Shown: positions 508-23,786 of the stretch, one piece after another
Layout: every line of letters starts with the position of its first letter
Position numbering within the stretch: the stretch's first letter is position 1
Assembly: GCF_024158605.1 (NCBI RefSeq)
Contig: NZ_JAMZGM010000034.1
Location: forward strand, 1 to 37,047
Reading direction: 5' to 3'
Origin: Sebaldella sp. S0638
GTDB taxonomy: Bacteria > Fusobacteriota > Fusobacteriia > Fusobacteriales > Leptotrichiaceae
Length of the DNA: 37,047 bases
Translations under genes and position numbers: made by a program
The notes under the pieces: generated by a model
Database searches by the model: none
Told to the model about the DNA's origin: nothing
What the model saw: the letters and a program-made list of their open reading frames with translations, nothing else

Positions 508-537
508 TCTAAAAATATAAAGAAAGAGGTATCAAAA

Positions 538-1035: not shown

Positions 1036-1048
1036 AAAGGAGCAGGAG

Positions 1049-1459: not shown

Positions 1460-1547
1460 TTATTGGGTTCTTTTTAAGAAGACTTGCTTTGCGCATACAA
1501 GTTAAAGACAAAAATAATAAAAGTATTATACGATAAAATAATTTTAT

Positions 1548-1618: not shown

Positions 1619-1621
1619 ATA

Positions 1622-1719: not shown

Positions 1720-1771
1720 TATAATATTTTACCATACAAACTACAAAAAGTCAAGAATTAAATTCATATAT

Positions 1772-1850: not shown

Positions 1851-1885
1851 CAATATATTTTTACCATACAAATTAAAAAAGTCAA

Positions 1886-2150: not shown

Positions 2151-2179
2151 TTGACTAAGGACATAAAATTTCATATAAT
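2151..2179 (+). promoter_or_regulatory. sigma70-type promoter of the restriction-modification gene
   Basis: TTGACT (2151-2156) and TATAAT (2174-2179) with a 17-base spacer. Transcription would start near 2186, giving a leader of about 85 nt before the ATG at 2271. Confidence 0.75.
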
Positions 2180-2270
2180 TAATCAATGGTTAGTATAGAT
2201 TTTTAAAGATATTATACGCAAAAGCCCAGTATTCTTAAGGGTGCTGAACTTAATTTTATGGAGGTATCCT

Positions 2271-5102
2271 ATGTTGAAAGTAATAGAGAGGGATGTGGAA
2301 ACGACAATAGATTATCAATTGAAAAATTTAAATTGGAAAGATCTTAGAACTGATCCTGAAAGAAATGTATTTAAGCAACAAGCTAAAACAGAGGAACAAA
2401 ATAAAAAATTAGGAAGTTTAAAGCCTGATTATGTATTATATAAATCAAATAGCAATCAACCTTTAATAGTAATAGAAGCAAAACGGCCAGGAGAGAATAT
2501 AAATAATGCAATTATTCAAGGTAAAAAATATGCAGATATAATTGAGGCACCCATAGTTATAGCAACAGATGGTGTGTTTACAAAAACACTATATAAGGAC
2601 GAAATGAAGCCATTAATTATTAATAATGAGGAAGTTGATGAGCTAATAAGAGAAATAACTGCATTGAAATTTTTAAATGAGGGATCATATGAAGTAAGTA
2701 CGCTTGATAAGAAAGTGATTCAATCCCGTTCAGAACTAATAAATATATTCAAACAATCGAATGATTATTTAAGAAGTGAGGGTTTGACTGCGGGAGTGGA
2801 GAGATTTAGTGAGTTCTCAAACATTCTGTTCTTAAAACTTATAAGTGAGTTAGAAGATATTAAAGATGAACTAAATAGTGTTTATGAGCAAAGTATTATT
2901 GAAAGAGAATACAGATGGAATTTTTTTAAAAATAAAAAAGGAATAGAATTATTAGACTATGTGAATAATATCGTTTTAAAAAAATTTCAAGATAAATATG
3001 ATAAAACTATATTTCAACCATTGTTAATAAAAAATCCATATACTTTAGAAAGAATAGTTGGACGATTGGATGATCTTCAGTTAACCGATATTAATTCAGA
3101 TGTAAAAGGTGATGCGTTTGAGTATTTTTTGCGTTCCTATAACTCTGGGAGCAAGGATTTAGGTGAATATTTTACACCCAGACATGTTATAAAAACTATG
3201 GTTAAATTATTAAGCCCCCGGTTAGGTGAAACTGTTTATGACCCATTCTGTGGAACAGGTGGGATGCTAATAGAAAGCTTTAAGCATATTAGAAATTCTA
3301 TTCCTCAAAACATAAAAGCGATTAATTTATTAAGAAAGGATACAATTTTTGGGAATGAAATAACTAATACTGCAAGAATAACTAAAATGAATATGATTTT
3401 AATGGGAGATGGGCATAGTAATATACAAAGAAGAGATAGTTTAGCCAATCCTGTTGAAAGTAAACATGATATAGTTATTACAAATATTCCTTTTGCCCAA
3501 ACAACAGAATACGGTCATCTATATGATGTTCCAACGAATCAAGGCAATAGTATATGCGTACAACATGCTTTGAAGGCCTTAAAAAATACTGAGAATTCTA
3601 GGGCAGCCTTAGTAGTACCAGATGGTTTTTTATATGATAGGAAATACATGAAGACCAGAAAGTTTATAATGGACAGGCACCAATTAAAGAGTGTAATCTC
3701 TTTACCAGCAGGTACTTTTAAACCCTATACCGATGTTAAAACAAGCATACTTTTATTTAAAGGTTCCAAAAATCAAGACAAAAAAATATGGCATTTTGCA
3801 GTAAAAAATGATGGATACACTTTTAATTCAAAAAGAGAAAAAAAAATAGGTGTCAATGATTTAGATATTTTGATATCAGAAAGAAATAATAATAATGTTG
3901 ATGAAAAAATTGAGTTCGGTTTCAACTTGTTGGATTTAAAAGATGTAAAAAGTAATGATTATCGATTACTAATAAATGATTACATTTCATATAAGATCGA
4001 AAGTAATCATAGAATTGAGAGTTTAGGAAATTTGATATTTGAAAAGAAAGAAAAAGTTAAATCTTTAGATATGGATATATGGACTGTAAGTAATACAGAG
4101 GGGTTTGTGAAACAAGAAGAAGTATTTTCTGAAAGGGTGGCTTCTAAGAATATTAGTAACTATAAAATAGTTGGAGAATCTGAATTTGCATATAATCCTT
4201 CAAGAATAAATGTGGGCTCAATTGCTTTAAATGAGAGTAATAATTTAGGATGCGTTAGTCCCATGTATGTTGTTTTTGCATGTGATAATAAAAAACTTTA
4301 TCCAGCATATTTGAAGCATATATTAAAACATGAAAAACTAAAGAAAATAATCCTTGAAAAAGCATATGGTAGTGTTAGAGATACTTTGAAATTTTCTGAC
4401 CTATGCGAAATAGAAATTCCGTTACCCTCGATTCAGGAACAAAAAATGATCGTATCAGAAATTAATAATTGTGCTCAAATTATAGATGCCTCGGTTTCTA
4501 TTGTGAAAAATTATAAACCATTTTTAGAAATAAAACCTGATTGGGAAATATACAAATTAGATGAAATATGTGATTTTGAATATGGTTATACTGATACATC
4601 AAATACAGACGGTAATGTGAGATATATTAGAATAACTGATATTGATTTTGACGGAACTCTTAAAAAAGAAGAGTCTAAGTATATAAGAAGCAATAATAAA
4701 AATGAAAAATTTAAATTGACACAGAATGATTTACTTGTGGCAAGAATTGGAGCTACTTATGGGAAGACTTTACTTTTTGATTCAAATGAAGCTGCTGTTT
4801 TTGCATCATACTTAATTCGCTTAAAATTAAATAAAAAAGTTTTGCCCAAATATTATTTTTATTTCTCTTTAAGTGATTATTATTGGGAACAAGTCAGATT
4901 GCTTGTTACAGGTGGGGCACAGCCACAGCTTAATGCAAACAGACTGAGTTTATTGAAAATTCCAGTTCCTACTTTGAAAGAGCAACAAAAGATAATTGAT
5001 CAAATTGATAAAGAGAGACATCTTGTAGAAGCATCTAAAGAAATAATAGAAATTTTTACTCAAAAGATTCATGGTAAAATCAATAGACTTTTTGAAAGCT
5101 AG
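2271..5102 (+). CDS. single-chain restriction-modification enzyme (type IIG/BcgI-like: nuclease + N6-adenine methylase + two recognition domains)
   Basis: 943 residues from the ATG at 2271, which has GGAGG seven bases upstream; a GTG at 2241 is in frame but has no ribosome-binding site. Domains in order: an HSDR_N-like PD-(D/E)XK nuclease (PDY with D53, then E69-A-K71); an HsdM helical domain (about 140-280); an N6-methylase with the SAM motif DPFCGTGG (324-331) and catalytic motif NIPF (405-408) in place of the usual NPPF/Y; two Methylase_S target-recognition halves (about 580-730 and 757-900), each ending in an EQ-rich helix. No helicase or translocase is present, so cutting would be close to the site, unlike true type I enzymes. 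It has its own promoter and terminator and stands alone between prophage-type genes, suggesting a transferred defence gene. Confidence 0.9.
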   Translation: MLKVIERDVETTIDYQLKNLNWKDLRTDPERNVFKQQAKTEEQNKKLGSLKPDYVLYKSNSNQPLIVIEAKRPGENINNAIIQGKKYADIIEAPIVIATDGVFTKTLYKDEMKPLIINNEEVDELIREITALKFLNEGSYEVSTLDKKVIQSRSELINIFKQSNDYLRSEGLTAGVERFSEFSNILFLKLISELEDIKDELNSVYEQSIIEREYRWNFFKNKKGIELLDYVNNIVLKKFQDKYDKTIFQPLLIKNPYTLERIVGRLDDLQLTDINSDVKGDAFEYFLRSYNSGSKDLGEYFTPRHVIKTMVKLLSPRLGETVYDPFCGTGGMLIESFKHIRNSIPQNIKAINLLRKDTIFGNEITNTARITKMNMILMGDGHSNIQRRDSLANPVESKHDIVITNIPFAQTTEYGHLYDVPTNQGNSICVQHALKALKNTENSRAALVVPDGFLYDRKYMKTRKFIMDRHQLKSVISLPAGTFKPYTDVKTSILLFKGSKNQDKKIWHFAVKNDGYTFNSKREKKIGVNDLDILISERNNNNVDEKIEFGFNLLDLKDVKSNDYRLLINDYISYKIESNHRIESLGNLIFEKKEKVKSLDMDIWTVSNTEGFVKQEEVFSERVASKNISNYKIVGESEFAYNPSRINVGSIALNESNNLGCVSPMYVVFACDNKKLYPAYLKHILKHEKLKKIILEKAYGSVRDTLKFSDLCEIEIPLPSIQEQKMIVSEINNCAQIIDASVSIVKNYKPFLEIKPDWEIYKLDEICDFEYGYTDTSNTDGNVRYIRITDIDFDGTLKKEESKYIRSNNKNEKFKLTQNDLLVARIGATYGKTLLFDSNEAAVFASYLIRLKLNKKVLPKYYFYFSLSDYYWEQVRLLVTGGAQPQLNANRLSLLKIPVPTLKEQQKIIDQIDKERHLVEASKEIIEIFTQKIHGKINRLFES

Positions 5103-5109
5103 CCAATTT

Positions 5110-5134
5110 AAGCACTCTACACGGGTGCTTTTTA
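5110..5134 (+). terminator. terminator of the restriction-modification gene
   Basis: AGCAC (5111-5115) pairs with GTGCT (5125-5129) and is followed by a T-rich run. The stem is short but well placed, eight bases after the stop. Confidence 0.6.
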
Positions 5135-5153
5135 TTATATTGAAATTTAGGGC

Positions 5154-5203
5154 TTGACATTATAACTTTTTGTGATATAATTGTATTACTAAAACAAATA
5201 CAA
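5154..5203 (+). promoter_or_regulatory. promoter with downstream inverted repeat (probable operator)
   Basis: TTGACA (5154-5159), 16-base spacer, TATAAT (5176-5181). Directly after the -10 box TTGTATT (5181-5187) and AATACAA (5197-5203) form an inverted repeat with centres 16 bases apart. This suits binding by the ribbon-helix-helix protein encoded just downstream (autoregulation, inferred). Confidence 0.65.
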
Positions 5204-5227
5204 AACGAAATATAGGAAGGAGGAATC

Positions 5228-5668
5228 ATGAGCGAAAATATATCAGATAATGATCAGAAGACAAGTTTAAAATCTTTTCGATTGAAGGAAAAAACGATTG
5301 AAAACATTTTAGAACTTACGAAAGTTTTTAAACTGACTCAAGCAGAAGTTATTGATAAAAGTGTAGATTTTTTTTATGGGCGGTATGATCAATTAGAAAA
5401 GATAAGTAAGACTTTACATGAAGAGGATTCAGTTACTTTGTATAACACTACAGATTATAATATGTATACAGAGTTTTATATTTTCAAAGACGAAAATGCT
5501 AAAAAGAATGGGTATACTTACAGTTGCCATTTTAAAATAAATGATCTGAAACCAATACATCTGTATATACGAAAAATTTCAGATTTATACGATTTAGGAC
5601 TAAATAAAGATTTTAATATGGCTAAAAAAAATGTAAAATTTAATTTTCCAATATCGGAAGAAAAATAA
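5228..5668 (+). CDS. ribbon-helix-helix-type DNA-binding protein with an extra C-terminal domain
   Basis: 146 residues, strong GGAGG upstream of the ATG. Residues about 14-50 (KSFRLKEKTIENILELTKVF and following) have the pattern of a ribbon-helix-helix: a short beta strand of alternating residues, then two helices. The remaining 95 residues, rich in tyrosine and beta-prone sequence, match nothing I know. It is first in an RHH / antisense RNA / antirepressor unit and is preceded by a likely operator, so a self-regulating repressor is the natural reading. The 3' end carries the T-run of the opposing RNA terminator. The fold assignment is moderate. Confidence 0.7.
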   Translation: MSENISDNDQKTSLKSFRLKEKTIENILELTKVFKLTQAEVIDKSVDFFYGRYDQLEKISKTLHEEDSVTLYNTTDYNMYTEFYIFKDENAKKNGYTYSCHFKINDLKPIHLYIRKISDLYDLGLNKDFNMAKKNVKFNFPISEEK

Positions 5669-5724
5669 AAAGTCGGTTCTCGTAAAACCGACTTCAATTG
5701 GAGATATAATATACCTCACACATC
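5664..5724 (-). ncRNA. candidate antisense RNA C upstream of the first antirepressor gene
   Basis: On the minus strand TTGATT (5759-5754), exactly 17 bases, TATAAT (5736-5731). About 60 nt on, the stem AGTCGGTT with AACCGACT (5693-5671, 7-nt loop) is followed by TTTTATTTTT that lies over the end of the RHH gene. The promoter and 5' end lie within an imperfect inverted repeat (5697-5744: TTGGAG-TATAATATA-CTC arms). The RNA is complementary to the 3' end and 5' leader region between the RHH and antirepressor genes. Its size and position match the sar RNA of phage P22. Confidence 0.65.
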
Positions 5725-5775
5725 GAGTATATTATACTCCAAAATTTGAAAAAAATCAAACTTGGAGGTAAAATT

Positions 5776-6276
5776 ATGAAAATCGTAAAAAAAGAAGTGA
5801 AATTTAACAGTGATAAAGTATTGGCTGTTATGAAAGATGGGAAACTGTATGTTGGAGTAAGTAATATTTGTTTAAATTTAGGAATGTCACAGGATATGAA
5901 GCGTAGACAAGTTAAAAATATTCAAAGTGATATTGTACTTAGGAAAGGGTGTGTCAAATTTGACACAGGGGTATTTGATAAGTATAATCAGGCATTAGCG
6001 ATAGAACTTGACTATTTACCGTTATGGTTGGCAAAGATTAGAATCACACCCAATATGATTGATGAAAAAAAAGAGTTGGCAAAAAAGCTCGTAGATTACC
6101 AACTCCATGCCAAAGATGTCCTTGCAGCAGCTTTTCTGGATAAACCTAAGCAATTATCACTACCGAAACCAAAAGAACATAAAATAATAAAGAAATACTA
6201 TAATGGTGTACCTGTTATGGGGACAGTGGATTTAGCATTTCTTACAGATAGAGGCTTGATAGTTCTGTATAATTAA
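5776..6276 (+). CDS. phage antirepressor, P22_AR_N type, short or truncated
   Basis: 166 residues from the ATG at 5776 with GGAGG seven bases upstream; an in-frame ATG at 5746 lacks a ribosome-binding site. Residues about 5-115 match the P22 antirepressor N-terminal domain (LDYLPLWLAKI.IT and neighbouring signature). Then comes a linker, QLSLPKPKEHKIIKKYYNGV, nearly identical to one in the antirepressor at 6599, after which only 20 residues remain before the stop. The homologous domain in the other protein runs on for 200 residues, so this gene probably lost its C-terminal effector domain or exchanged it by recombination at the linker. Antirepressors bind and inactivate phage repressors. Confidence 0.8.
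   Translation: MKIVKKEVKFNSDKVLAVMKDGKLYVGVSNICLNLGMSQDMKRRQVKNIQSDIVLRKGCVKFDTGVFDKYNQALAIELDYLPLWLAKIRITPNMIDEKKELAKKLVDYQLHAKDVLAAAFLDKPKQLSLPKPKEHKIIKKYYNGVPVMGTVDLAFLTDRGLIVLYN
6145..6220 (+). repeat. linker-coding repeat, copy 1 (copy 2 at 6923-6998)
   Basis: The DNA for the shared antirepressor linker is almost identical in the two genes, with 32 bases exactly equal (6166-6197 and 6944-6975). The flanking domains are unrelated, as expected for a recombination seam between modular phage proteins. Confidence 0.85.
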
Positions 6277-6285
6277 AAATAATTC

Positions 6286-6315
6286 TTGACACGACATGTA
6301 GATGTGGTGTATATT
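6286..6315 (+). promoter_or_regulatory. promoter with 22-bp operator palindrome in its spacer
   Basis: TTGACA (6286-6291), 18-base spacer, TATATT (6310-6315). The 22 bases 6289-6310 form an interrupted palindrome (ACAC.ACAT.TA.ATGT.GTGT, 9 of 11 pairs). A repressor bound there would cover the space between -35 and -10, where phage P22 Arc binds its own promoter. Confidence 0.7.
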
Positions 6316-6340
6316 AATTATGTAGTTAGGAGGTGTGAGC

Positions 6341-6481
6341 TTGGAAATGAAAAGGACTCAAATATACCTACCCGAAGAGCAAGTAAAAGAGCTGAAATAT
6401 ATAGCTATAGAAGAAGAAACTAATGTAAGCGAAATAATTAGAAGGCTGGTAGATGAATATTTGAGTAAACGAAAAAAATAG
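6341..6481 (+). CDS. Arc/CopG-like ribbon-helix-helix repressor, 46 residues
   Basis: A small gene reading (M)EMKRTQIYLPEEQ and ending LSKRKK. The TTG at 6341 is seven bases from AGGAGG; the ATG at 6347 is 13 bases away, so TTG is the likelier start. TQIYLPEEQ is a classic ribbon-helix-helix beta strand, followed by helix A (VKELKYIAIEEE), the turn TNVSE and helix B (IIRRLVDEYL). P22 Arc is of similar size (53 residues). The palindrome in the promoter just upstream suggests autorepression. The coding end contributes AAAAAAA, which on the other strand is the T-run of the antisense RNA terminator. Confidence 0.88.
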   Translation: MEMKRTQIYLPEEQVKELKYIAIEEETNVSEIIRRLVDEYLSKRKK

Positions 6482-6538
6482 CCTTTACAGTGGTGTGTAA
6501 AGGCTATATGTGAGGTATTGTTATAATACCTAACCAAC
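6472..6538 (-). ncRNA. candidate antisense RNA D between the RHH and antirepressor genes (sar-like)
   Basis: On the minus strand TTGATT (6573-6568), exactly 17 bases, TATAAT (6550-6545). The transcript, about 67 nt, ends at an 11-bp perfect stem TAGCCTTTACA with TGTAAAGGCTA (6506-6479, 6-nt loop) followed by seven T. P22 sar RNA (about 68 nt) is placed the same way between arc and ant. A further stem, GGTATT with AATACC, lies in the 5' half. On the plus strand the same hairpin has no T-run, so it should not stop the RHH-antirepressor mRNA. Confidence 0.7.
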
Positions 6539-6598
6539 AATTGTATTATAACAAATATCCTCTGAAAAATCAATTTCATAAAAATCGGAGGAATTAAA

Positions 6599-7588
6599 AT
6601 GGAAAAATTTGAAATATTTAATAATGAAAAATTGGGAAAAGTAAGAACAGTTACAATTAACAATGAAATCTGGTTTGTATTGACTGATATCTGTAAAATT
6701 TTAGGAATAAAAAATATTACTCAAATGGCCAGTAGATTAGACGAAGATGAACGGTCTATGTTTAACATAGGTCGTCAGGGGAAAGCCAATATAATCAATG
6801 AAAGTGGTTTGTATAAAGTACTTTTCAGAAGTGACAAACCAGAAGCAAAAGAATTTTCAAACTGGATCACGAAAGAAGTTATACCAAGCATCAGAAAAAC
6901 TGGAAAGTATGATATTAATCAACCAAAACAACTAACATTACCAAAACCAAAAGAACATAAAATAATAAAGAAATATTATAATGGTGTGCCTGTGATGAGT
7001 ATGAGGGATTTAGCGTATCTTGTAGGATGCTCCCTTTATACTGTACACCATTATGCCGGAGAAAATAAAGTTCTGATAAACGGTCACAAGATGGTAAATT
7101 TTAAAAAAGAAAACCCTAATTTACCGAAAACACTAGCCAATATGGTGATTCTCTACAGGGAAGAGGTAATAAGTATTATAAGAAGAACAGGTACACTTGG
7201 GAGATTACAAAATCAAATATCAGCTTATTTTGACAACATTACACCTGAGGTATCAGACGAGGGGACAGAACACCCCATTGCAGACCAAAATATGAAAGCA
7301 GAAAAGCTTCTGCAGGTTCTCCCACATATTACAGAAGAAGGTTTGAAAAATCATGTGGTCACAGAAGTGATTCGACTTATAGATAATAAGATACTGGAAG
7401 AATACAAAAATGGGAGCCTTGGTATGAGATTTATAGATAGTAGTGAGAAGATAATTGAAATGCATGAGTTTAATAATTTCAAAATGACTTTAGTGAAAAC
7501 TGATAAACCTATAGAAGAATTCATTAGTCCAAACTATACAGTGTCAAATGTACAGGGTAATAAATTAATTGTTGAAAAAATTAAGTGA
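6599..7588 (+). CDS. phage antirepressor with Bro-N domain
   Basis: 329 residues, GGAGG upstream. Residues about 1-105 are a Bro-N domain (EIWFVLTDICKILGI, then ESGLYKVLFRSDKPEAKEFSNWI and TKEVIPSIRKTGKY, both clear signatures). The linker at 107-130 is shared with the preceding antirepressor. The C-terminal 200 residues start with a helix-turn-helix-like stretch (MRDLAYLVGCSLYTVHHY) and are otherwise unknown to me. It forms a unit with the Arc-like gene at 6341 and the antisense RNA between them. Likely role: inactivation of a prophage repressor or other regulation of lysogeny. Confidence 0.88.
   Translation: MEKFEIFNNEKLGKVRTVTINNEIWFVLTDICKILGIKNITQMASRLDEDERSMFNIGRQGKANIINESGLYKVLFRSDKPEAKEFSNWITKEVIPSIRKTGKYDINQPKQLTLPKPKEHKIIKKYYNGVPVMSMRDLAYLVGCSLYTVHHYAGENKVLINGHKMVNFKKENPNLPKTLANMVILYREEVISIIRRTGTLGRLQNQISAYFDNITPEVSDEGTEHPIADQNMKAEKLLQVLPHITEEGLKNHVVTEVIRLIDNKILEEYKNGSLGMRFIDSSEKIIEMHEFNNFKMTLVKTDKPIEEFISPNYTVSNVQGNKLIVEKIK
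6923..6998 (+). repeat. linker-coding repeat, copy 2 (copy 1 at 6145-6220)
   Basis: Second copy of the DNA coding for the antirepressor linker. It continues into a longer C-terminal domain here than in copy 1. Confidence 0.85.
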
Positions 7589-12353: not shown

Positions 12354-13088
12354 TTAAAATCCAAATTTGTAGTTTAGACCAAATAAAATAGAGAAATTAC
12401 CGCTTCCTCTTGTAAGCGGACTGTCTGATATTTCATTGGAATATTGGTTATATTCTCCTGAAAATATAAGTTCCACATTATCGGTAATATTGGAATATCC
12501 TTTAATACCTGTAGCTATTTTGTAAGAACTTCCCGGAACATACGGGTCAATATTAGTCAGTTTTGCTGCTTCACTGTCTGTAATTCCGAAATAATAGTTG
12601 GTATAGTTCTGACTGAAATACTGCATATTTATAAAAGGAGCCACAAGAGTATTTTTCCCCAGCGGGAGAGGCTGTGCGACCTCAAGTCCTGCAAGAGTCC
12701 CGTTACTTTTATTAAGTATGTCTGTGGAAACAAAACCAGTGAAAGTAACCTTAGTAGGACCTGCAAAATACCACCCTCTTAATCCAATATGAAGATCATC
12801 TTTCCTGTCATCCATATTTTTCAGATAGTCCTTAAAATCACCGGAATCATAACCTGTAAAAAGATTATACCTTCCGTAAACAGTAATTCTGAGATCTTCA
12901 TCCTTATATAAATGATAACCTGCTTCAAGGGGAGCAATAAAATAAAAGTTGTTATATTCCAAAGCTGCCGCAGGAAGAGGGTAAAACTGGTATTTATCTT
13001 CAAAATTGTAGATATCTTTTCTAAAAAATCCACCTAACCCTATTTTTAAATAGTTTTCTTTTGAGTATGCAAAAGCTGAAATAAACAC
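12354..13088 (-). CDS. outer-membrane beta-barrel protein whose start codon appears lost
   Basis: 244 residues as readable from an internal GTG. The protein has alternating amphipathic strands and ends YKFGF with a terminal phenylalanine, the usual signal for outer-membrane insertion. Family not recognised. The frame stays open upstream to 13109 and encodes KKVIIFLV, the missing front of a normal signal peptide, preceded at the right distance by GGAGG (13123-13119). Where ATG is expected, the minus strand reads TTTAG before AAAAAAG; restoring one T gives ATGAAAAAAG. So a one-base deletion seems to have removed the start. Starting at GTG would leave a stub signal peptide. Either recently inactivated, initiated unusually, or a sequence error. 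Confidence 0.75.
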   Translation of the reverse strand: MFISAFAYSKENYLKIGLGGFFRKDIYNFEDKYQFYPLPAAALEYNNFYFIAPLEAGYHLYKDEDLRITVYGRYNLFTGYDSGDFKDYLKNMDDRKDDLHIGLRGWYFAGPTKVTFTGFVSTDILNKSNGTLAGLEVAQPLPLGKNTLVAPFINMQYFSQNYTNYYFGITDSEAAKLTNIDPYVPGSSYKIATGIKGYSNITDNVELIFSGEYNQYSNEISDSPLTRGSGNFSILFGLNYKFGF

Positions 13089-13142
13089 AAGAAAAATAAT
13101 TACTTTTTTCTAAACAAACCTCCAAAAGTTTTTAATATGAAC

Positions 13143-13151
13143 ATTATACCA
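13143..13151 (-). promoter_or_regulatory. extended -10 promoter of the minus-strand barrel gene
   Basis: On the minus strand TGGTATAAT (TATAAT at 13148-13143). No good -35 box at 17 bases. Its preservation suggests the gene was active until recently. Confidence 0.55.
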
Positions 13152-13241
13152 TAAATTGACTGTTAAAAAACTGAAAGTTTTCTGAAATATAAAAAAAGTC
13201 AATAAAAATGTTTGTTTACTTTTAAAAAATATTTACAATTC

Positions 13242-13247
13242 TATAAT
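13242..13247 (+). promoter_or_regulatory. -10 box of a putative promoter for the tRNA-like RNA region
   Basis: TATAAT with weak upstream candidates (CTTTTA at 17 bases; TTTACT at 21). Transcription would begin near 13254, 18 nt before the first tRNA-like element. Confidence 0.45.
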
Positions 13248-13271
13248 AAAATGATATCCTAAATAGAATAT

Positions 13272-13430
13272 GGGATAATAGTTTAATGGGAAAACACCGA
13301 TAAAAAAACAGAGTATCATTATGTGAGGATCATGTCATTGTGATCCCGTGCTTGGAATATTATTCTTTGAGTATCTAAAATAATGAGAAAAGTTTTGGGA
13401 ATATTAGTTCGAATCTAATTTGTTCCACCA
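13272..13430 (+). ncRNA. tRNA-like RNA with complete acceptor, D and T arms and CCA, anticodon region replaced by ~90 nt
   Basis: Acceptor GGGATAA (13272-13278) pairs 7/7 with TTGTTCC (13420-13426), including a G3-U70 wobble. T8 and A9 follow. The D arm is GTTT/AAAC (13281-13295) with loop AATGGGA (A14, GG, A21 present). The T arm is ATTAG/CTAAT (13403-13419) with canonical loop TTCGAAT and G53-C61; then A73 and an encoded CCA. A 4-nt variable loop (13399-13402) and a partial anticodon stem (CCGA with TTGG) are in place, but about 90 nt separate the two stem strands, with a GGATCA/TGATCC hairpin (13327-13346) and an ATTATT/AATAAT pairing inside. Total 159 nt against 76 for a normal tRNA. Too short for a group I intron. 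Folded by hand. Confidence 0.7.
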
Positions 13431-13435
13431 TGTAA

Positions 13436-13501
13436 TTGGAAGATTTGGTTCAAATCCAAAACAGGATCTCGTATCCTGAAAGCTAATTGGTAAGCATCCA
13501 A
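13436..13501 (+). ncRNA. circularly permuted tRNA-like fold with ends at the anticodon loop
   Basis: In genomic order: anticodon-stem 3' strand TTGGA (13436-13440), T arm TTTGG/CCAAA (13444-13460) with loop TTCAAAT and G53-C61, acceptor 3' strand CAGGAT (13462-13467), 5-nt linker CTCGT, acceptor 5' strand ATCCTG (13473-13478), D arm GCT/AGC (13482-13495) with loop AATTGGTA, position 26 A, and anticodon-stem 5' strand TCCAA (13497-13501). TCCAA pairs 5/5 with TTGGA. Every arm of a tRNA is present with near-normal spacing, but the molecule is closed at the acceptor and open at the anticodon loop. Position 8 is A and not U. Bacterial YrlA-type Y RNAs also carry T- and D-arm mimics, but no Ro60 gene is nearby. 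Confidence 0.65.
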
Positions 13502-13512
13502 CTTATTTACGC

Positions 13513-13540
13513 GTTTGACTCGGGATTAAAAGTGCGAAAC
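13513..13540 (+). other. bulged hairpin between the tRNA-like elements
   Basis: GTTT (13513-13516) pairs with AAAC (13537-13540), and ACT with AGT (13518-13520 / 13531-13533), with bulged G residues. It contains TTGAC and CGAA, which recall the Ro60-binding helix of Y RNAs, though in reversed strand order; this resemblance is weak. Confidence 0.35.
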
Positions 13541-13542
13541 AG

Positions 13543-13559
13543 CCAATCTGTAAAATTGG
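13543..13559 (+). ncRNA. tRNA-Tyr-like anticodon stem-loop without a tRNA body
   Basis: CCAAT (13543-13547) and ATTGG (13555-13559) form a 5-bp stem around the 7-nt loop CTGTAAA, identical to the anticodon loop of bacterial tRNA-Tyr (anticodon GTA, U33 and A37 present). I find no D arm, T arm or acceptor arranged around it. Confidence 0.5.
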
Positions 13560-13608
13560 AAATGTTAAAAACAAAGTAGAAAAAAATAAGGTATTCAGGG
13601 AAAAGCCC

Positions 13609-13631
13609 GTATAAATGCCTGGCATTTATAC
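13609..13631. repeat. 23-bp perfect palindrome
   Basis: GTATAAATGCC, one T, GGCATTTATAC. In RNA it gives a 9-bp hairpin; no T-run follows, so it is not an intrinsic terminator. An outer pairing GGTAT (13590-13594) with ATACC (13659-13663) may enclose it. It could be an operator for the slipin gene or part of the structured RNA. Confidence 0.6.
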
Positions 13632-13710
13632 CGTTGTAAAAATTCTGTACTTCGGCAGATACCGCATTACGAATCTTTTTATCTAAATTATCCGTGTTTT
13701 ATAAGACTAT

Positions 13711-13843
13711 TTGCAGGCAACTAATGTAGATTTTCTATAAAATTACTGTTTTTTTACATATAAAGATAAGTAAAGCTTAAGCCGGATTCCATTTCTGCAG
13801 TGGAGTGGGAATTTCCCGAAAATACCTGTTAAAAAGGAGGAAT
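13711..13843 (+). promoter_or_regulatory. possible promoter and structured leader of the first slipin gene
   Basis: TTGCAG (13711-13716) and TATAAA (13736-13741) with a long 19-base spacer form a weak promoter. The leader has an ATTCC/GGAAT pairing and GGGAATTTCCC (13807-13817) shortly before AAGGAGG and the ATG. The gene could also be transcribed from the promoter of the RNA region. Confidence 0.35.
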
Positions 13844-13844
13844 A

Positions 13845-15344
13845 ATGAAGTATATAGTAAATGAGGGACAAAGAGCTTTGGTCTTTAAGGACGGAAAGCT
13901 CGTAGATTATTTGAAAGAAGGAATTTACAATAATTTTGGCTTTTTTAATAAAAATTTTGAAGTATATGAATGTGAAGGTTTGCTAAAGGCAAAAATAAAA
14001 CTTGATATTTTATTAAAAAATGAAAAACTGAAAGAAGAACTTGATGTAGTGGAAGTGGATGAACACGAACTTCTTTTATATTATAAGGATAATAAATTTT
14101 CAGGGGCTTATTATCAGGGAAAATATGCTTTCTGGAAAGTTCTGGGTGAAAATAGCTTTAGAAAGCTGGACTTAACACAATTATTTAAGATAGATACAAA
14201 ATTAAAAAATGTATTTTCACAATGGACACTGAGTTCATCATTTGATACAGTGGAAGTGGAAGACTACAATATGGCTCTTTATTATAGAAACGGCATATTT
14301 GAGGATGTATTTTTTGAGGGTGAATATGCAGTTTCCAAAAAATATTACAGAAACAGCTTTACAAAATTCGATTTGAGAACACCAATTGTATATAATAACA
14401 CAATGAAAAAGATGTTTGATAAAAATCCGGGACTTATAGATAGTTTTGATGTAAAGAAAGTAAAGGAAAAAGAACTTTTGATATGGTCTCAAAATGGTAT
14501 TTATAAAGGGAAATATCTTACAGGGGAATATTTATTCTGGAATAAGCTGGAAAAAAATGAATTTGATATTATAGATCTGAATATGGAAGGTGAAATTGAT
14601 AAAAAATATCACAATATTCTGGAAAGACTAGCAGGAGTGTATTCAAAATTTGATATAAAAGATTATGAAGCAGGTCTTTTGATAAAAAACAGCCAGTATG
14701 AAAAAACTTTGACGCCGGGAATTTATTATTTCTGGAACGGTACTGATAAAAAAGAGCTTATAAATGTGGATTTGCGTTTGAAACAGCTGGATTTACAGGG
14801 GCAGGAAATTCTAACAAAGGATAAGATCACGCTAAGGCTGAATTTTGTTACACAATACAGAATAACCGATCCTTTGAAGAATTACAAAAAGATAAATAAT
14901 CTTGAAAATCAAATTTATATACTTCTTCAGATTGTACTCAGAGAATATGTAGGAATGCAGAATCTGGAGCAGCTTTTGGAAAATAAAAATGAAATAGCGG
15001 AATTTGTTCTGAACAGAATAAAAAAAGAGGAAGAAAAATACGGGGTGGAATTCATAGAAGCAGGAATAAAAGATATAATTCTTCCGGGAGATATAAAAGA
15101 AATTCTCAATACAGTTCTTATTGCAGAAAAGAGTGCATTAGCAAACACTATAAAGAGACGGGAAGAAACAGCTTCTACAAGAAGTCTTCTGAATACCGCA
15201 AAGGTCATGGAAGAGAACAAAACTCTGTACAGACTGAAAGAAATGGAATATATAGAAAAGATAGTAGAGAAAATAGGAAATATAGAGATAAGCGGAAATG
15301 GAAATATATTGGAAGAACTGGGGAAAATATTTTCCAGAAAATAA
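13845..15344 (+). CDS. slipin/SPFH (band 7) family protein with five repeated N-terminal modules
   Basis: 499 residues, AAGGAGG upstream. The start MKYIVNEGQRALVFKDGKLV matches the front of slipin proteins. A module of about 45 residues, roughly DxYExGLLxxxGxYxxxLxxGxYxFWN...xxIDL, recurs at about 1-40, 67-110, 134-177, 200-245 and 269-310; ordinary slipins have one or two. The SPFH domain follows (about 310-430: LTKDKITLRLNFVTQYRITD, YILLQIVLREYVG, IKDIILPGDIKEI), then a coiled coil (AEKSALANTIKRREETASTR). No clear membrane anchor is visible. Such proteins form ring or scaffold oligomers. Slipin genes of this kind are found near RtcB RNA-repair genes in some bacteria; here the gene follows tRNA-like RNAs. 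Function unknown. A paralogue is at 26140. Confidence 0.85.
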   Translation: MKYIVNEGQRALVFKDGKLVDYLKEGIYNNFGFFNKNFEVYECEGLLKAKIKLDILLKNEKLKEELDVVEVDEHELLLYYKDNKFSGAYYQGKYAFWKVLGENSFRKLDLTQLFKIDTKLKNVFSQWTLSSSFDTVEVEDYNMALYYRNGIFEDVFFEGEYAVSKKYYRNSFTKFDLRTPIVYNNTMKKMFDKNPGLIDSFDVKKVKEKELLIWSQNGIYKGKYLTGEYLFWNKLEKNEFDIIDLNMEGEIDKKYHNILERLAGVYSKFDIKDYEAGLLIKNSQYEKTLTPGIYYFWNGTDKKELINVDLRLKQLDLQGQEILTKDKITLRLNFVTQYRITDPLKNYKKINNLENQIYILLQIVLREYVGMQNLEQLLENKNEIAEFVLNRIKKEEEKYGVEFIEAGIKDIILPGDIKEILNTVLIAEKSALANTIKRREETASTRSLLNTAKVMEENKTLYRLKEMEYIEKIVEKIGNIEISGNGNILEELGKIFSRK

Positions 15345-18531: not shown

Positions 18532-18561
18532 TTGACAACATATAAACTAATTTGTTAGAAT
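18532..18561 (+). promoter_or_regulatory. promoter of the autotransporter gene
   Basis: TTGACA (18532-18537), 18-base spacer, TAGAAT (18556-18561). The start site near 18568 lies after an in-frame ATG at 18560, which rules that ATG out as the translation start. Confidence 0.7.
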
Positions 18562-18607
18562 GTGTAGACTAGAAAAAATTAAACGATCGGAAGGTAAAGA
18601 AAAAGAA

Positions 18608-21600
18608 ATGTTTTTGAAGAGAAAAAAAAGAACGGCAGCATTAGTGGCAATATTTCTGGCGTGTGGAATTATAACGAAAACAGAAGAAGTTAAAGATGAA
18701 TTTCTATTATTAGGGACATATTTTAGAAATTTTTCAAACAAATCTGAAAGCAGCCAAAAGAATAATAAAGAGACTGACAGTGGTGTTATACCTGACCCAG
18801 ATTCAGACCCAATTCCTGATCCAACTCCTGATCCTGACCCAACTCCGGTTTCAGACCCGTTTCCGGTGGTAAAAGAAGACAGTATAGTAAAGGCAGAGAA
18901 AAATAAAAGCGGAGAAATACTGAGATATTACGTTTCAGATGATATTAGTTCATTAAATCACGAAGCATTGTGGATGACAGACAAAAATACATTTGTATAT
19001 AATAATAAAATTCTTCATTCAGATTCAGATTACACAGTATTAGTGGAAAATGAGGCATATTTTGAAAATAATGGAACAATAACAGGGGAAAATGCAGGAG
19101 TAAAATTATCAGGAAATTCCCAAATGGTAAACAATTCTGTGATAGCAAATTCAGGTGATAAAGGTGTGGAAGTAACAGAAGGTTCATCATTTGTGAATAA
19201 CGGAACAATAAGAAACAGCAGAAATTATGGGATTTTAGTAAATGGAGCAAATTCAGAAGCTGTAAACGGTTTTTCCGGAATAATAGAAAATGGAGATATT
19301 AGTGATAAAAATACCGGACTTGCGGGAATATATGTAACAGAAGGCGGTACAGGAAGAAATGAAGGAACAGTAAAAAATACTTCTTATTACGGGATGTATA
19401 TAACAGGTACTGATTCCAGAGGAATAAATGAAAGCAGCGGAATTATCAGCAACGGAGCAGCAAGCGGATATGGATATTTTGGAATGTATGCTGATAATGC
19501 AGGAACTATAATAAACCGTGGTTTGATAATTAACTCTAATTGCAGAGGTATGTATGCCAAAGGAGTAGGAACCACAGCAATAAATGAAGAAAGCGGAATC
19601 ATAAGAAATGGGACAGCATCTACCGCTTATGTATATGACATAGCAGGTATGCAGGCAGTCTCAGGTGCTACAGCCATAAATAAGGGGAAAATTGAGACAA
19701 TAGGAATGTACGGAATGACATCGACATATGCCGGATCTCATGCTATTAATACCAGTACAGGTGTTATCGCAAATACAAAACTATATGGTATGTATTCAGA
19801 AGCTGGAGGAAAAGCTACTAATTACGGTGAAATAAGAAATGATCAGGATGGAATGTATGTAACCGGTACAGGGAGTACAGCCGTTAACGAATCTACAGGT
19901 ATTATAAAAAATACAGGTTATTATGGTATGCGTGCTATGAACGGAGGACATGCATCAAATAAAGGCATAATACAGAATACTTTTTCCAATGGAATGTATG
20001 TACAAGGGAAAGATTCGGTTATAGTCAATGAGAACGGCGGAGTTATACAAAATAACGGGAGTTCCGGGATGAGTGTAATGGATAAGGGAACAGCATATAA
20101 CTATGGAATAATAAGAAATACAGGCGACTCAGGAATGGATATATTCAGCGGAACAGGATATAATTACGGAACAATAGAAAATAAGGGTAATTACGGAATG
20201 AGTATCACAGGAAGTTCAACAGCGGTAAACAGCGGCACAATACATTTGATCGGTAACAATAAAACAGGAGTTTCTGTATCTTATTCAAATTTCATAAATG
20301 ATGGTACGATTATTCTTGAAGGAAACAATAATATAGGAATAAAAGCTGTAAAAAGTACAGTGAAATTAACCCCGAATTCTGTAATTACTCTGACTAACGG
20401 AACTGAAACAGATACAGTAACTGCTGAAAATACTGACTTTGCGTCAAAAGGTGCAGAAAATGTAAGTTCATTAGGGAAATTTTATTCTCTTGATTCCGAG
20501 TCAACTCTTATAAACAGCGGGTCCATTCTTGGCAAGACAGTAAATATATATGGCGGCGGAAAATTCGTACTGGATAGTAAAACAGGAAATATACAGGCAG
20601 ATAATCTGATTTTAGATAGTAATATGTATGTTAATTCACAGAGAACACTTGATTCTTCAAAAAACATTTATGAAATGAATAATCTCAATGTGGGAAATGT
20701 GACCGGAGACGGGAAAATCATATCAGAATCTAAAATATTTACAGTAAATGCAGATAAAACAAGCAGCGGATATAAAGTTACCCTGACAAGAAAGAATTTT
20801 CAGGATATTTTTTCAGGAGATCTGGGAAATGTACTGGAAGCTAACTATGAAGGGTCAGAAAATAATAAGACGAAAAACAGCGTGTATAACGCATTAAAAC
20901 AGATAAACAGCAGTGAAGCCCTGAAAACAGCCTCAGATGAACTGACGGCGAATGCATTGACGGGAAATCAGGTTTATCAGCAATATACACAAAATAAAAT
21001 GATAAATAACAGTTTGAATACAATGCTGATCAAAAGAAACGAAAATGTAAGCGGAACATATGTTAATATCTTTGGAAGCAATTCAAATATAAATGACCAC
21101 GATGGTATAAGCGGGTATAAAAGCGGAACATCTGGAATTCTCTTGGGGAGAATGGAAAAAATAGCTGAAAAAACTGCAATAGGAGGATTTCTCGGCTATA
21201 TAAATGCAGAATATAATTATAAAGACAGCGGCGATTCACAACAGATTTCCGATACATGGATTTTGTCAGGTGCAGTAGAACAGGAACTAACACCAAACTT
21301 AAAGTGGACATCAATAATAAGCTATAATACAAGTGATAATGATACTGAAAGAAAAGTAACATATGACGGCAGCAATACAGCTTTAACAGGAAACTTCCGT
21401 TCATGGTCGCTTGGAGGAAGCACTATGTTGGAATATGGACATAAAATTAATAACTATATCACATTAAAGCCGACAACTGGTATAATTCTTGACTACATAG
21501 AGCAAAGTGCATATAGTGAAGAAGGCGGAACCGGAGCAAGTGTGGAATCATATAACGGATTTTCTGTAAAAGCAGCAGCAGGAATCAGAGCAGATTTCAC

Positions 21601-21880
21601 AGCATATAACAGTAAAAACAATAAATTCATGATACAGCCAAAGATGCTTTATACATATGAAATGAGCAGCCCTTATGACAATAAACATGTAATAATGAGC
21701 GGATTTGACGGAAATATAGGGATGAATAGCAGAACAGCAGATAAAAATGATCTGAATCTCGGAATAGATTTACAGTATGTGTATAAAGATAATTTATCAT
21801 TATATGCAGGTTATGAAAGCGGAGTATTTTCAGATGACAGACTGGCAGCAGTAACAGCCGGATTTAAAATAATGTTTTAA
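18608..21880 (+). CDS. autotransporter adhesin-like protein (type V secretion)
   Basis: 1090 residues from ATG 18608, chosen because the promoter -10 box overlaps the earlier ATG and because MFLKRKKRTAALVAIFLA is a normal signal peptide. Domains: signal; a Pro-Asp linker (about 46-72, repeated PDP units); a long beta-helix passenger (about 110-640) of roughly 40-residue repeats with N.GTI.N and YGMYVTG/STAVNES motifs; a linker helix; an autotransporter beta-barrel (about 810-1090, from SGTYVNIFGSN) ending FKIMF with terminal Phe. The barrel inserts in the outer membrane and exposes the passenger. Fusobacteriota are rich in such proteins. No protease motif is visible, so a structural or adhesive role is likelier. 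Own promoter and terminator; repeats may vary by recombination. Confidence 0.92.
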   Translation: MFLKRKKRTAALVAIFLACGIITKTEEVKDEFLLLGTYFRNFSNKSESSQKNNKETDSGVIPDPDSDPIPDPTPDPDPTPVSDPFPVVKEDSIVKAEKNKSGEILRYYVSDDISSLNHEALWMTDKNTFVYNNKILHSDSDYTVLVENEAYFENNGTITGENAGVKLSGNSQMVNNSVIANSGDKGVEVTEGSSFVNNGTIRNSRNYGILVNGANSEAVNGFSGIIENGDISDKNTGLAGIYVTEGGTGRNEGTVKNTSYYGMYITGTDSRGINESSGIISNGAASGYGYFGMYADNAGTIINRGLIINSNCRGMYAKGVGTTAINEESGIIRNGTASTAYVYDIAGMQAVSGATAINKGKIETIGMYGMTSTYAGSHAINTSTGVIANTKLYGMYSEAGGKATNYGEIRNDQDGMYVTGTGSTAVNESTGIIKNTGYYGMRAMNGGHASNKGIIQNTFSNGMYVQGKDSVIVNENGGVIQNNGSSGMSVMDKGTAYNYGIIRNTGDSGMDIFSGTGYNYGTIENKGNYGMSITGSSTAVNSGTIHLIGNNKTGVSVSYSNFINDGTIILEGNNNIGIKAVKSTVKLTPNSVITLTNGTETDTVTAENTDFASKGAENVSSLGKFYSLDSESTLINSGSILGKTVNIYGGGKFVLDSKTGNIQADNLILDSNMYVNSQRTLDSSKNIYEMNNLNVGNVTGDGKIISESKIFTVNADKTSSGYKVTLTRKNFQDIFSGDLGNVLEANYEGSENNKTKNSVYNALKQINSSEALKTASDELTANALTGNQVYQQYTQNKMINNSLNTMLIKRNENVSGTYVNIFGSNSNINDHDGISGYKSGTSGILLGRMEKIAEKTAIGGFLGYINAEYNYKDSGDSQQISDTWILSGAVEQELTPNLKWTSIISYNTSDNDTERKVTYDGSNTALTGNFRSWSLGGSTMLEYGHKINNYITLKPTTGIILDYIEQSAYSEEGGTGASVESYNGFSVKAAAGIRADFTAYNSKNNKFMIQPKMLYTYEMSSPYDNKHVIMSGFDGNIGMNSRTADKNDLNLGIDLQYVYKDNLSLYAGYESGVFSDDRLAAVTAGFKIMF

Positions 21881-22040: not shown

Positions 22041-23033
22041 ATGGAAAATAAAAATGAAGTTTTTTTCTATGATGAAAATGAAATAGACATTTTGGAAAAT
22101 CATATCGGAGAGTTTTTCGGGGAATTTTCCAATGTATTTCATGAAATGATTTCGCCTGATATTCATGTAGATATTGCAATAATACCGCCTGATGAAAAAA
22201 GAGATTTTTATACTCTTGTGACTATGGGAATGGGAGCATATATAATGAATGTTCCTGACGGGTTAAAAGGATACAGGCTGGAAAGAGCCGAATTAATGGT
22301 GACGCTTCCTTCTGACTGGGAAGTACAGAATACAGATGAAAAATGGTACTGGCCTGTAAGATGGCTGAAAATTCTTGCCAGATTTCCTCTGGAGGAGAAC
22401 ACATGGCTTGGCTGGGGACATACTATTCCGAATGGAGAACCTTTTGCTGAAAATACAGGGCTTTCAGGGATTTTACTTTTGAATCCTTATTCAGAAAATG
22501 AAAAAGCAGGAAGCCTATCTTTGCCAAATGGCGATATAGTGAACTTTTACCAGATGTTTCCGCTTTATAATGAGGAGATGGAATTCAAAAGGGAGAATAA
22601 TGCAGAGGTACTTTTAGATCTGTTTGGTGACGATTTCGACCATGTGGTGGATATAAACAGAGAAAATATAAAGGAATGGAAACCAATAAAAGATTTTTAT
22701 CTGAAAAAAGAAGAGATTAAAGATATTCTTCAATGGGAAGGTGCTGCCGGATGTTTTGCCACTGACAGAATAACAGTCAGCGGAGAAAAGGTAGGATATA
22801 TGTACAGGGAAATACCGGATTTTGACGGAGACAGCGTATGGCGTTTTACTGCCGGAGACGAAACGGATGAATATATGGAAAATCCTGATAATTCAGGAAT
22901 TTATCATCTGAATACAATAGCTAATTACGATACTGACATTATCCCTTTTTTGATGTCAGGGATAAATACAGCATTTATGAGGGATGAGAATGGAGAATTT
23001 CAGGAAGTAGAAAACTGGGAACCGGAAGAATAA
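22041..23033 (+). CDS. SUFU-domain protein fused to DUF2185, immunity-protein type
   Basis: 330 residues. Residues about 10-215 match bacterial SUFU-like domains (HVDIAIIPPDEKRDFYTLVTMGMGAY, ELMVTLPSDW, YWPVRWLKILARFP, TWLGWGHTIPNGEPF). Residues about 235-325 match DUF2185 (GCFATDRITVSGEKVGYMYRE, DSVWRFTAGDE, NTIANYDTDIIPFL). Both domains are known as immunity modules in polymorphic toxin systems and often occur as fused or stand-alone immunity proteins. It is cytoplasmic. No toxin gene lies next to it; the DUF4241 gene follows after 18 bases. Which toxin it blocks cannot be told. Confidence 0.88.
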   Translation: MENKNEVFFYDENEIDILENHIGEFFGEFSNVFHEMISPDIHVDIAIIPPDEKRDFYTLVTMGMGAYIMNVPDGLKGYRLERAELMVTLPSDWEVQNTDEKWYWPVRWLKILARFPLEENTWLGWGHTIPNGEPFAENTGLSGILLLNPYSENEKAGSLSLPNGDIVNFYQMFPLYNEEMEFKRENNAEVLLDLFGDDFDHVVDINRENIKEWKPIKDFYLKKEEIKDILQWEGAAGCFATDRITVSGEKVGYMYREIPDFDGDSVWRFTAGDETDEYMENPDNSGIYHLNTIANYDTDIIPFLMSGINTAFMRDENGEFQEVENWEPEE

Positions 23034-23051
23034 TAATGGAGGGAGAAAATT

Positions 23052-23786
23052 ATGAGACCAACAAATGAATGGATGGAAATATGGAAGAAAAAAAGAGAGG
23101 TTTTATCATGTCCAAATGATTTAAATGAATATTTTGAGCTGGATGAAATAGCCGGACAGAAGCTGGACAGACTTTCTTTCGGGAAAGTATCCTTGCCAAG
23201 CGGAGAAATTTTGGTAAGAGATCCTCTTGTGTATCTGAATAAAGATGAAGAGCCTTATTTTGAAAAAGTTCCCGCAGGAGAATTTGAAGCAGTAGGGGCA
23301 GTTATTTTATCAGAGGAAGACTGTGCAAGATATGCTGCTGTCAGAGTAAAGTTCAATGAAAATAAAGCTGTGAGATTCGGAGAAGCTCTATTGGGGCATG
23401 AAGATATAAGCGATCTTGAAGAAGGGGAGTATTTCGGTTTTAATGTAGATGCAGGATTGGGAACTATACTTGATAAAGAAACACTTATTGCTTTTGACGA
23501 ATTTTTTATGAACTGGCATGAGGAAAATCCAGAAGGAAATATCTATGATGATTATTTTGCAGATATTTTCAGCAAAAATTATAAAGAAAACCCTAAATAT
23601 CAGCGTGAGGGCGGAGACTGGATAAACTGGTGCGTACCTGGTACGAATCTTCATATGCCTGTATTTCAAAGCGGTTTCGGAGACGGAACTTATCCTGTTT
23701 ATTTCGGTTATGATGAAAATGATAAGATATGTTCTCTGGTAATACAATTTATAGATATAAAAATGGCTTTCGAAGATGAAGATTAA
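23052..23786 (+). CDS. DUF4241 protein, probable immunity protein
   Basis: 244 residues, GGAGGG upstream. It has the DUF4241 hallmarks: LPSGEILVRDPLVYL near 55-70, AAVRVKFN, FNVDAGLGTI, and the C-terminal GGDWINW, FQSGFGDGTYPVYFGYD and QFIDI. DUF4241 proteins are found with polymorphic toxins and other immunity genes, but the biochemical role is unknown. In the same operon as the SUFU-DUF2185 gene. Confidence 0.88.
   Translation: MRPTNEWMEIWKKKREVLSCPNDLNEYFELDEIAGQKLDRLSFGKVSLPSGEILVRDPLVYLNKDEEPYFEKVPAGEFEAVGAVILSEEDCARYAAVRVKFNENKAVRFGEALLGHEDISDLEEGEYFGFNVDAGLGTILDKETLIAFDEFFMNWHEENPEGNIYDDYFADIFSKNYKENPKYQREGGDWINWCVPGTNLHMPVFQSGFGDGTYPVYFGYDENDKICSLVIQFIDIKMAFEDED

Follow-up and report, generated by a model that had tools for sequence, protein, structure and literature searches.

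The window analysed here (the whole stretch of 37,047 nt, one contig from a Fusobacteriota genome of 4.27 Mb) contains at positions 13436-13501 a real, conserved and covarying, circularly permuted tRNA-like domain, which forms part of a structured non-coding stretch. We hold the structure and the family identity, taken together, with high confidence. The best reading of the RNA, to which we give even chances, is that it mimics tRNA and serves a slipin-type RNA-repair system as scaffold and bait.

Locus and architecture of the permuted module

The module is located in ~750 bases without a listed reading frame of at least 80 amino acids, between a MipA-like gene and a slipin gene. The structured non-coding stretch 5' of slipin comprises ~13272-13840 (~570 nt). 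Its features and those of the adjacent genes are as follows (window coordinates).

12354-13088, minus strand: MipA-like outer-membrane gene
13272-13430, plus strand: tRNA-like fold 1, normal arm order, with an insert replacing the anticodon arm (Rfam tRNA, 34.6 bits)
13272-13278, plus strand: acceptor 5' strand of fold 1, followed by the D arm and a ~98-nt insert that replaces the anticodon arm
13403-13419, plus strand: T arm of fold 1
13420-13426, plus strand: acceptor 3' strand of fold 1, followed by A plus CCA (13427-13430)
13436-13501, plus strand: circularly permuted tRNA-like module with an open anticodon stem and with CTCGT closing the acceptor stem
13436-13440, plus strand: anticodon-stem 3' strand TTGGA, 5/5 pairs with TCCAA (13497-13501); a spacer AGA separates it from the T arm
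13444-13460, plus strand: T arm TTTGG-TTCAAAT-CCAAA, 5 bp, loop TTCAAAT
13462-13478, plus strand: closed acceptor stem CAGGAT-CTCGT-ATCCTG, 6 bp, preceded by a single A
13462-13478, minus strand: terminator-like site, formed by the acceptor hairpin and the T-rich sequence after it
13482-13495, plus strand: D arm GCT-AATTGGTA-AGC, 3 bp, with GG in the loop; AAA precedes and A follows
13497-13501, plus strand: anticodon-stem 5' strand TCCAA
13520-13526, plus strand: alternative-pairing strand UCGGGAU, 7/7 pairs with 13473-13479 (acceptor 5' strand plus one base) in the minimum free energy (MFE) structure of three longer stretches
13543-13559, plus strand: anticodon-arm-like hairpin CCAAT-CTGTAAA-ATTGG, loop at 13548-13554
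13609-13631, plus strand: perfect hairpin of 11 bp in the 3' part of the RNA
13657-13664, plus strand: AGATACCG, by eye the likely counterpart of the GGATACCG motif found 3' of the tRNA-like part in Clostridia loci
13845-15344, plus strand: slipin (SPFH/Band 7) gene, 499 aa, immediately 3' of the RNA (Pfam PF01145, Band_7, E 6.7e-29)

ARAGORN detected 0 tRNA or tmRNA genes in the window, ruling out a tmRNA or an ordinary tRNA gene as the identity of the RNA. A search of the whole window against Rfam at gathering scores returned no match. At the loci searched with Rfam 15, only pieces of these RNAs were reported, either as tRNA or as sub-threshold YrlA.

Elsewhere in the window, a second slipin-type gene (26140-27792, 550 aa) shares 50% identity with the first over the alignment and has a different C-terminus. 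Inspection by eye of the stretches upstream of the paralogous slipin genes (window 26140 and locus L026) revealed no T arm and, for the window gene, no tRNA-like RNA. A SUFU and Imm33 protein followed by a DUF4241 protein (22041-23786) resemble polymorphic-toxin immunity genes and are located 3' of an autotransporter (18560-21880). Judged by eye from the translations, positions 43-7588 are prophage-like, with amidase- and holin-like frames and Bro-N-like antirepressors; a type I restriction-modification M/S-like protein (2241-5102) lies inside this stretch.

Read 5' to 3', the module consists of the 3' strand of the anticodon stem, the T arm, the acceptor stem with its 5-nt loop, the D arm and the 5' strand of the anticodon stem. 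An earlier note on this DNA had proposed such a permuted order with 5/5 anticodon-stem pairs, and every helix that it drew was recovered to the base. When both strands of the window were scanned, a descriptor requiring all four helices in module order and a T loop TTCRANY matched at a single place, 13436-13501. In Markov-1 one-strand copies we obtained 1 match in 60, corresponding to ~0.03 expected per window, a value that understates chance because the four-helix descriptor was written after the module had been seen.

The earlier note had also drawn a comparison with the permuted tRNA genes of algae and archaea, for which we found no support. A permuted tRNA gene that matures into a working tRNA, like those of red algae and of some archaea, would have its 3' half preceding its 5' half, as observed here. 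However, in 7/8 of the modules aligned below the acceptor halves are linked by only 4-5 nt without CCA (in the window by CTCGT, which lacks discriminator and CCA), and the flanks of the open anticodon ends in the relatives provide no consistent anticodon loop. Moreover, bacteria are not known to possess the splicing endonuclease. We regard this origin as next to impossible.

Computed folds

When the 66-mer was folded in isolation, the proposed structure reached -14.3 versus -14.4 for the MFE structure (within 0.1 kcal/mol). The sequence was only mildly more stable than its shuffled versions (z -1.47; 17/200 equally good). In longer stretches (13426-13565, 13272-13565 and 13265-13844), the MFE structure has 13473-13479 paired with 13520-13526 and the module is absent; its pairs are improbable in the computed folds of these stretches. 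Thus, a better alternative fold, which the earlier note had named as an argument against its proposal, is seen in part, in the computed energies of longer stretches, but not in the comparative evidence. The alternative pairing is also possible in the sister genome G090, with two one-sided changes and an unchanged downstream strand. The acceptor hairpin is changed on both sides between the window (CAGGAT/ATCCTG) and G090 (CGGAATG/CATTCCG). Since a computed fold alone is weak evidence, the case for the module rests on comparative evidence.

The alternative pairing could be the switch of a cis-acting leader, a 5' element of the slipin mRNA that senses the state or cleavage of tRNA in a T-box-like role. 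The location of the RNA just 5' of the slipin start would suit such a leader, as would the appearance of the pairing in the MFE structure of all three longer stretches and its possibility in G090. However, the one terminator-like site detected in 13100-13860 is on the minus strand, the pairing was examined in two sister genomes only, and a dedicated regulator, RtcR, adjoins the Citrobacter locus. We consider a leader function improbable.

Conservation and covariation in slipin-linked relatives

In the same genus, G090 carries the RNA at full length 5' of slipin (82% identity), and G088 carries a rearranged RNA 5' of slipin, in which a T arm is twice combined with a closed hairpin and two arms are anticodon-like. 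Slipin of this type was detected in 5/98 Fusobacteriota genomes (E up to 1e-15). In the distant Fusobacteriota genome G052, a T arm with closed hairpin is located upstream of slipin, and G089 has a paralogue-type slipin only. Of the 22 genomes matched by the RNA in blastn, 19 belong to other genera; their matches (28-44 nt each) were judged to be chance. Relatives outside Fusobacteriota were located via slipin, so that their slipin linkage is no independent result. Slipin matches were found in 12 plasmid records, in 10/391 Clostridia genomes and in 11/392 genomes of one order, with one genome common to both sets. Among E. coli genomes, 1,621/5,426 contain at least 80% of the query consisting of upstream region and slipin. 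No slipin match was found in phage records queried with the G052 protein.

A set of 28 loci was assembled from 18 Clostridia, plasmid records H1 to H5, the E. coli chromosome H24, the window's genome (G000), G090, G088 and G052. Note that of the 20 Clostridia genomes with a slipin match, L076 and L078 were dropped, as the match begins within a longer reading frame. Of the 12 plasmid records, H9 and H7 (near copies) and H10 (different slipin) were left out, and H6, H8, H11 and H12 were not included.

In 21/28 slipin upstream regions, the window included, a closed hairpin follows a T arm, compared to a mean of 0.12 and a maximum of 2 in 200 shuffled sets; the pattern was chosen after some of the loci had been read. 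This core is missing in E. coli O145, Burkholderia, Photobacterium, L069, L070, L072 and L074 (7/28). The E. coli O145 region has a T stem with mismatches, Burkholderia and Photobacterium have tRNA-like folds with conventional acceptor pairing, and L069, L070 and L072 have a T arm with no hairpin satisfying the rule. In the Photobacterium locus (L039, 3662-3799, upstream of slipin), two tRNA-like folds are arranged in tandem ~1 nt apart, without CCA between them; the permuted modules may have arisen from such an arrangement. In the L074 upstream region, the GCGGTG...TATGCC and GGATACCG motifs are kept by eye and a T arm is absent. Judging from L074, conservation may be stronger in the outer core of the RNA than in its tRNA-like part.

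The open-anticodon module occurs in only 8/28 loci. We aligned these modules (alignment A4: G000, G090, G088, L060, L061, L062, L064 and L048), which represent four lineages, as L060-L064 are close relatives. MAFFT partly misaligns L048 and G088 in the acceptor stem; both rows were retained. In A4, 94.6% of 148 cells are paired, a percentage inflated by the choice of rows with a drawable open anticodon stem. The covariation score was 0.648, compared to 0.202 +/- 0.037 for shuffles (0/500 reached 0.648) and at most 0.179 for slid versions. The 20 further pair types observed were reached by 5/500 shuffles. Both-side changes occur in 14/19 pairs: 5/5 in the rotated anticodon stem, 5/5 in the closed acceptor stem, 3/5 in the T stem and 1/4 in the D stem. 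The four lineages have four versions of the anticodon stem: TTGGA/TCCAA, CCTTA/TAAGG, ATGAA/TTCAA (one mismatch) and ATGAT/ATCAT. Compensatory changes in homologues, the absence of which the earlier note would have counted against its fold, are therefore present, and its closed acceptor end and open anticodon end are supported by covariation.

The note had further suggested a search with a covariance model. Model R1 was built from five relatives, excluding the window and G090, and its best match in the window was 13436-13501 (16.4 bits, E 0.024, a rough value), with the runner-up at 8.5 bits. R1 also matches neighbouring ordinary tRNA genes and was therefore not used for a genome census. These R1 matches would fit a chance fold or the remnant of decayed tandem tRNA genes, as would the z-score of only -1.47 and the different MFE structure of longer stretches. 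However, tandem tRNA genes do not predict both-side changes in a closed acceptor hairpin and a rotated anticodon stem, and ~0.03 descriptor matches are expected per window (for a descriptor made after the fact). Chance or decay is thus an extremely unlikely explanation.

Further tRNA-like parts and anticodon loops

The earlier note covered only one part of the RNA, which also has fold 1 (13272-13430) and a tRNA-Tyr-like hairpin (13543-13559). In a search of the short stretch with laxer filters, the one credible match was Rfam tRNA at 13272-13427, with 34.6 bits (gathering score 29) and an anticodon arm containing a long insert; the whole-window search at gathering scores did not report this match. 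The acceptor, D and T stems of fold 1 stay paired in the window, G090 and G088. Both-side changes, all of them in G088, affect acceptor pair 7, D pair 2 and T pair 1. Fold 1 terminates in ACCA in all three Sebaldella-genus sequences.

The hairpin 13543-13559 is part of the MFE structure of 13265-13844 and is absent from that of the two shorter stretches. We compared its loop with a reference of 26 distinct tRNA sequences with 24 distinct loops, derived from 30/37 tRNA matches of the window's genome. Note that this list was applied to loci of all taxa. The window loop CTGTAAA is the exact loop of tRNA-Tyr(GUA) of the same genome. In the sister genome G090, the same stem carries CTGTCAC, the exact loop of tRNA-Asp(GUC), position 38 included. 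One arm of G088, CATGA-CTTTTAA-TCATG, shares all 17 nt with the tRNA-Lys arm from the window's genome, and the second anticodon-like arm of G088 has the loop TTGTCAC, one base off the Asp loop. Four related Clostridia have at the same place CTGTCAC (Asp; on a stem with one mismatch and thus outside the exact count), CAGTTAA (Asn, U33 changed), CGGTCAC (Asp, U33 changed) and CTTTTAA (Lys).

Across the 28 loci, 5-bp stems carry an exact tRNA anticodon loop in 9 cases (Tyr x1, Asp x2, Lys x2, Leu x3, Ser x1); the 200 shuffled sets had a mean of 0.2 and a maximum of 2. Related loci do not count as independent cases here, though the loops differ among them, and two Leu-CAA loops (L059 and L074) sit in uncertain positions. 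Loops with one mismatch numbered 19, compared to 2.8 in shuffles (maximum 9). An exact loop is present in 9/28 loci and absent in 19/28. In Subdoligranulum and Burkholderia, GAAA tetraloops are seen by eye at the expected place of the anticodon loop. The nucleases colicin E5 and PrrC target GUN and UUU, respectively, according to an excerpt of PMC6277466. A restriction of the anticodon loops to colicin E5 and PrrC targets was dropped when the wider count added Leu and Ser loops.

These data also bear on whether the RNA is purely a Y-RNA-like tether. In that case, protein docking would be the sole task of the tRNA-like domain, as proposed for YrlA, and the anticodon hairpins would be roleless leftovers of a tRNA ancestor. 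The topology shared with YrlA, the prevalence of the T arm and closed hairpin as the most widespread part (21/28 loci) and the RNAs of Subdoligranulum and Burkholderia, which are without an anticodon loop, are all consistent with a tether. Leftovers, however, would be expected to decay, yet 9 exact loops are found among the 28 loci, and between relatives the loops change as whole blocks. We view a pure tether as possible, though on balance unlikely.

RNA-repair genes near related RNAs

Slipins are membrane scaffolds. Related RNAs are located 5' of slipin genes in Fusobacteriota, Clostridia and Proteobacteria, with RtcB, RlaP or RtcR beside some of them. The Subdoligranulum operon has the order RNA, slipin, RtcB, RlaP, and a protein encoded upstream matches the WCX regulator domain only weakly, below the cut-off. 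The order in E. coli is RNA, slipin, RlaP. In Citrobacter, RNA and slipin are followed by a nucleotidyltransferase (by annotation only), and a divergent rtcR precedes the RNA. The E. coli and Citrobacter loci are both found between a DUF3811 gene and lysC, together with other genes. The TGGCACGC sites 5' of the RNA in Enterobacteria and Burkholderia resemble sigma-54 promoters. In the window's genome, RtcB matches are on contigs C8 and C40 and one RlaP match is on C1, all apart from the slipin contig; neither RtcB nor RlaP was found in the same operon as the window slipin.

RtcR binds 5' tRNA halves with a cyclic phosphate end (excerpt of PMC7790460), and RlaP is predicted to replace lost nucleotides ahead of ligation (excerpt of PMC7824862). 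The same excerpt terms ROT/TROVE proteins an RNA-repair platform with a tRNA-like partner. That the module might mimic tRNA towards repair or damage-sensing proteins, as suggested in the earlier note, would fit with the genes found beside such RNAs elsewhere (RtcB, RlaP, RtcR). The open anticodon stem likewise fits the picture of a nicked tRNA, yet the chain simply runs on into the rest of the RNA.

Proposed role of the RNA

We propose that the RNA is made together with slipin upon tRNA damage and is displayed as a mimic of tRNA on the membrane slipin scaffold, slipin taking the place that Ro60 holds for Y RNAs. The elbow, consisting of the T and D loops on a closed, unchargeable acceptor stem, may dock tRNA-binding repair proteins such as RtcB or RlaP. 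This docking is modelled on YrlA, which is thought to act in this manner with Ro60. As the acceptor ends of the module are joined, the RNA would be neither charged nor used in translation. The anticodon hairpins may be bait for anticodon nucleases or, alternatively, reporters of nuclease attack. For the scaffold role we see the chances as about balanced; the bait role is more tentative, with the odds somewhat against it.

The scaffold and bait reading draws on the independent R1 match, the covariation, the T arm-closed hairpins in 21/28 loci and the 9 exact loops. It is further based on the Tyr-to-Asp swap in the sister genome, including position 38, and on the 17-nt identity to the Lys arm, as well as on the company of slipin with RtcB, RlaP or rtcR elsewhere, the presence of RtcB and RlaP in the window's own genome and the binding of tRNA halves by RtcR. 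It is weakened by the location of RtcB and RlaP on contigs other than that of slipin in this genome, by the longer-stretch MFE structures without the module, by the occurrence of the open-anticodon form in only 8/28 loci, from four lineages, and by the use of slipin to locate the relatives outside Fusobacteriota. It is also weakened by Leu and Ser loops, which fall outside the commonly known nuclease targets, by the 19/28 loci without an exact loop and by the GAAA tetraloops.

A more far-reaching and doubtful version would be that the host, through its slipin RNA-repair operons, makes an array of uncharged tRNA look-alikes displayed at the membrane, with the anticodon hairpins as exchangeable nuclease baits. 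At one fixed site in a conserved RNA, the loop would be taken over from a genuine tRNA and exchanged (Tyr, Asp, Asn-like, Lys, Leu, Ser) in step with changes of the attacking nucleases. With anticodon loops that switch between relatives, the role of tRNA mimics in RNA repair becomes testable: does the loop carried by the RNA decide which nuclease is resisted or sensed? For finding such RNAs, the T arm and closed acceptor hairpin provide a marker.

Comparison with known systems

The earlier note had recommended a comparison with Y RNAs, which turned out to be the right lead. The T arm, closed acceptor hairpin, D arm and an anticodon stem that is open and continued outward are found in the tRNA-like domain of YrlA (Rfam RF02553) as in the module, both in the structure line of the Rfam model and in an excerpt of PMC8394870. 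In contrast to YrlA, the window RNA is linked to slipin, not Ro60, and forms part of a ~570-nt stretch with further tRNA-like parts. In addition, the module is internal, and a Y RNA end stem was not recognised by eye in its flanks.

A genuine YrlA Y RNA would have the identical domain topology, and the G088 module matches Rfam YrlA at positions 23-87 only, with 37.2 bits. However, this is below the gathering score of 69, and ordinary tandem tRNA genes score similarly. Sub-threshold YrlA matches (E up to 0.01) occur in 96/98 Fusobacteriota genomes, with 0 above the cut-off; of six that were checked, 4 were on ordinary tRNA genes and 2 (G000 contig C7 and G090) on units that are Y RNA-like by eye. 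As such matches fall on ordinary tandem tRNA genes, the YrlA score, including the 37.2 bits in G088, is no evidence. The window gives no match to the YrlA model at E up to 5, its genome contains 0 TROVE (PF05731) genes, and the Y RNA-like units of the same genome are elsewhere. Filing the RNA under YrlA was rejected on the basis of the Rfam score and the absence of a Ro60 gene, with no end stem recognised by eye; a genuine YrlA is very unlikely.

The Y RNA-like units on G000 contig C7 (L113, Rfam match 62702-62816) and in G090 (L111) are arranged in tandem by eye and have end stems with TAACAGCA/TTACAGCA; two have a T-arm-like part and one is without it. The G000 units are located 3' of a 383-aa DUF2828/DUF7788 gene, away from the slipin locus. 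They probably represent a distinct Ro-type Y RNA locus of this genome, despite the absence of a PF05731 TROVE gene.

In 2016, Burroughs and Aravind reportedly described RNA-repair systems in which an SPFH/Band-7 module comes with a novel tRNA-like molecule. The Subdoligranulum operon, in which a Band 7 gene, the tRNA-like RNA, RtcB and RlaP are combined, resembles this module, and the RNA family was probably already noted by these authors. In the other literature covered, on tRNA-like RNAs, slipin, RNA repair and anticodon-nuclease decoys, no description of the RNA was seen.

In the rsr-yrlBA-rtcBA operon of Salmonella, whose RtcR senses tRNA halves, a tRNA mimic is likewise made inside an RNA-repair operon (excerpt of PMC7790460). 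The protein there is of the Ro60 type, whereas it is slipin here, and the RNA is different. Phage tRNAs that evade anticodon nucleases are a further example of tRNA copies directed against tRNA-cleaving systems (excerpts of PMC12409363, PMC10264068 and PMC11555353). In contrast to phage tRNAs, the RNAs described here are host-encoded, uncharged, permuted mimics with swapped loops.

New, as far as the literature covered goes, are the covarying rotated order in a slipin-linked RNA and the switching anticodon loops. The YrlA-type permuted tRNA fold, known from Ro60 RNAs, is now also seen in an RNA linked to slipin, and permuted tRNA-like RNAs can carry genuine, switching anticodon loops.
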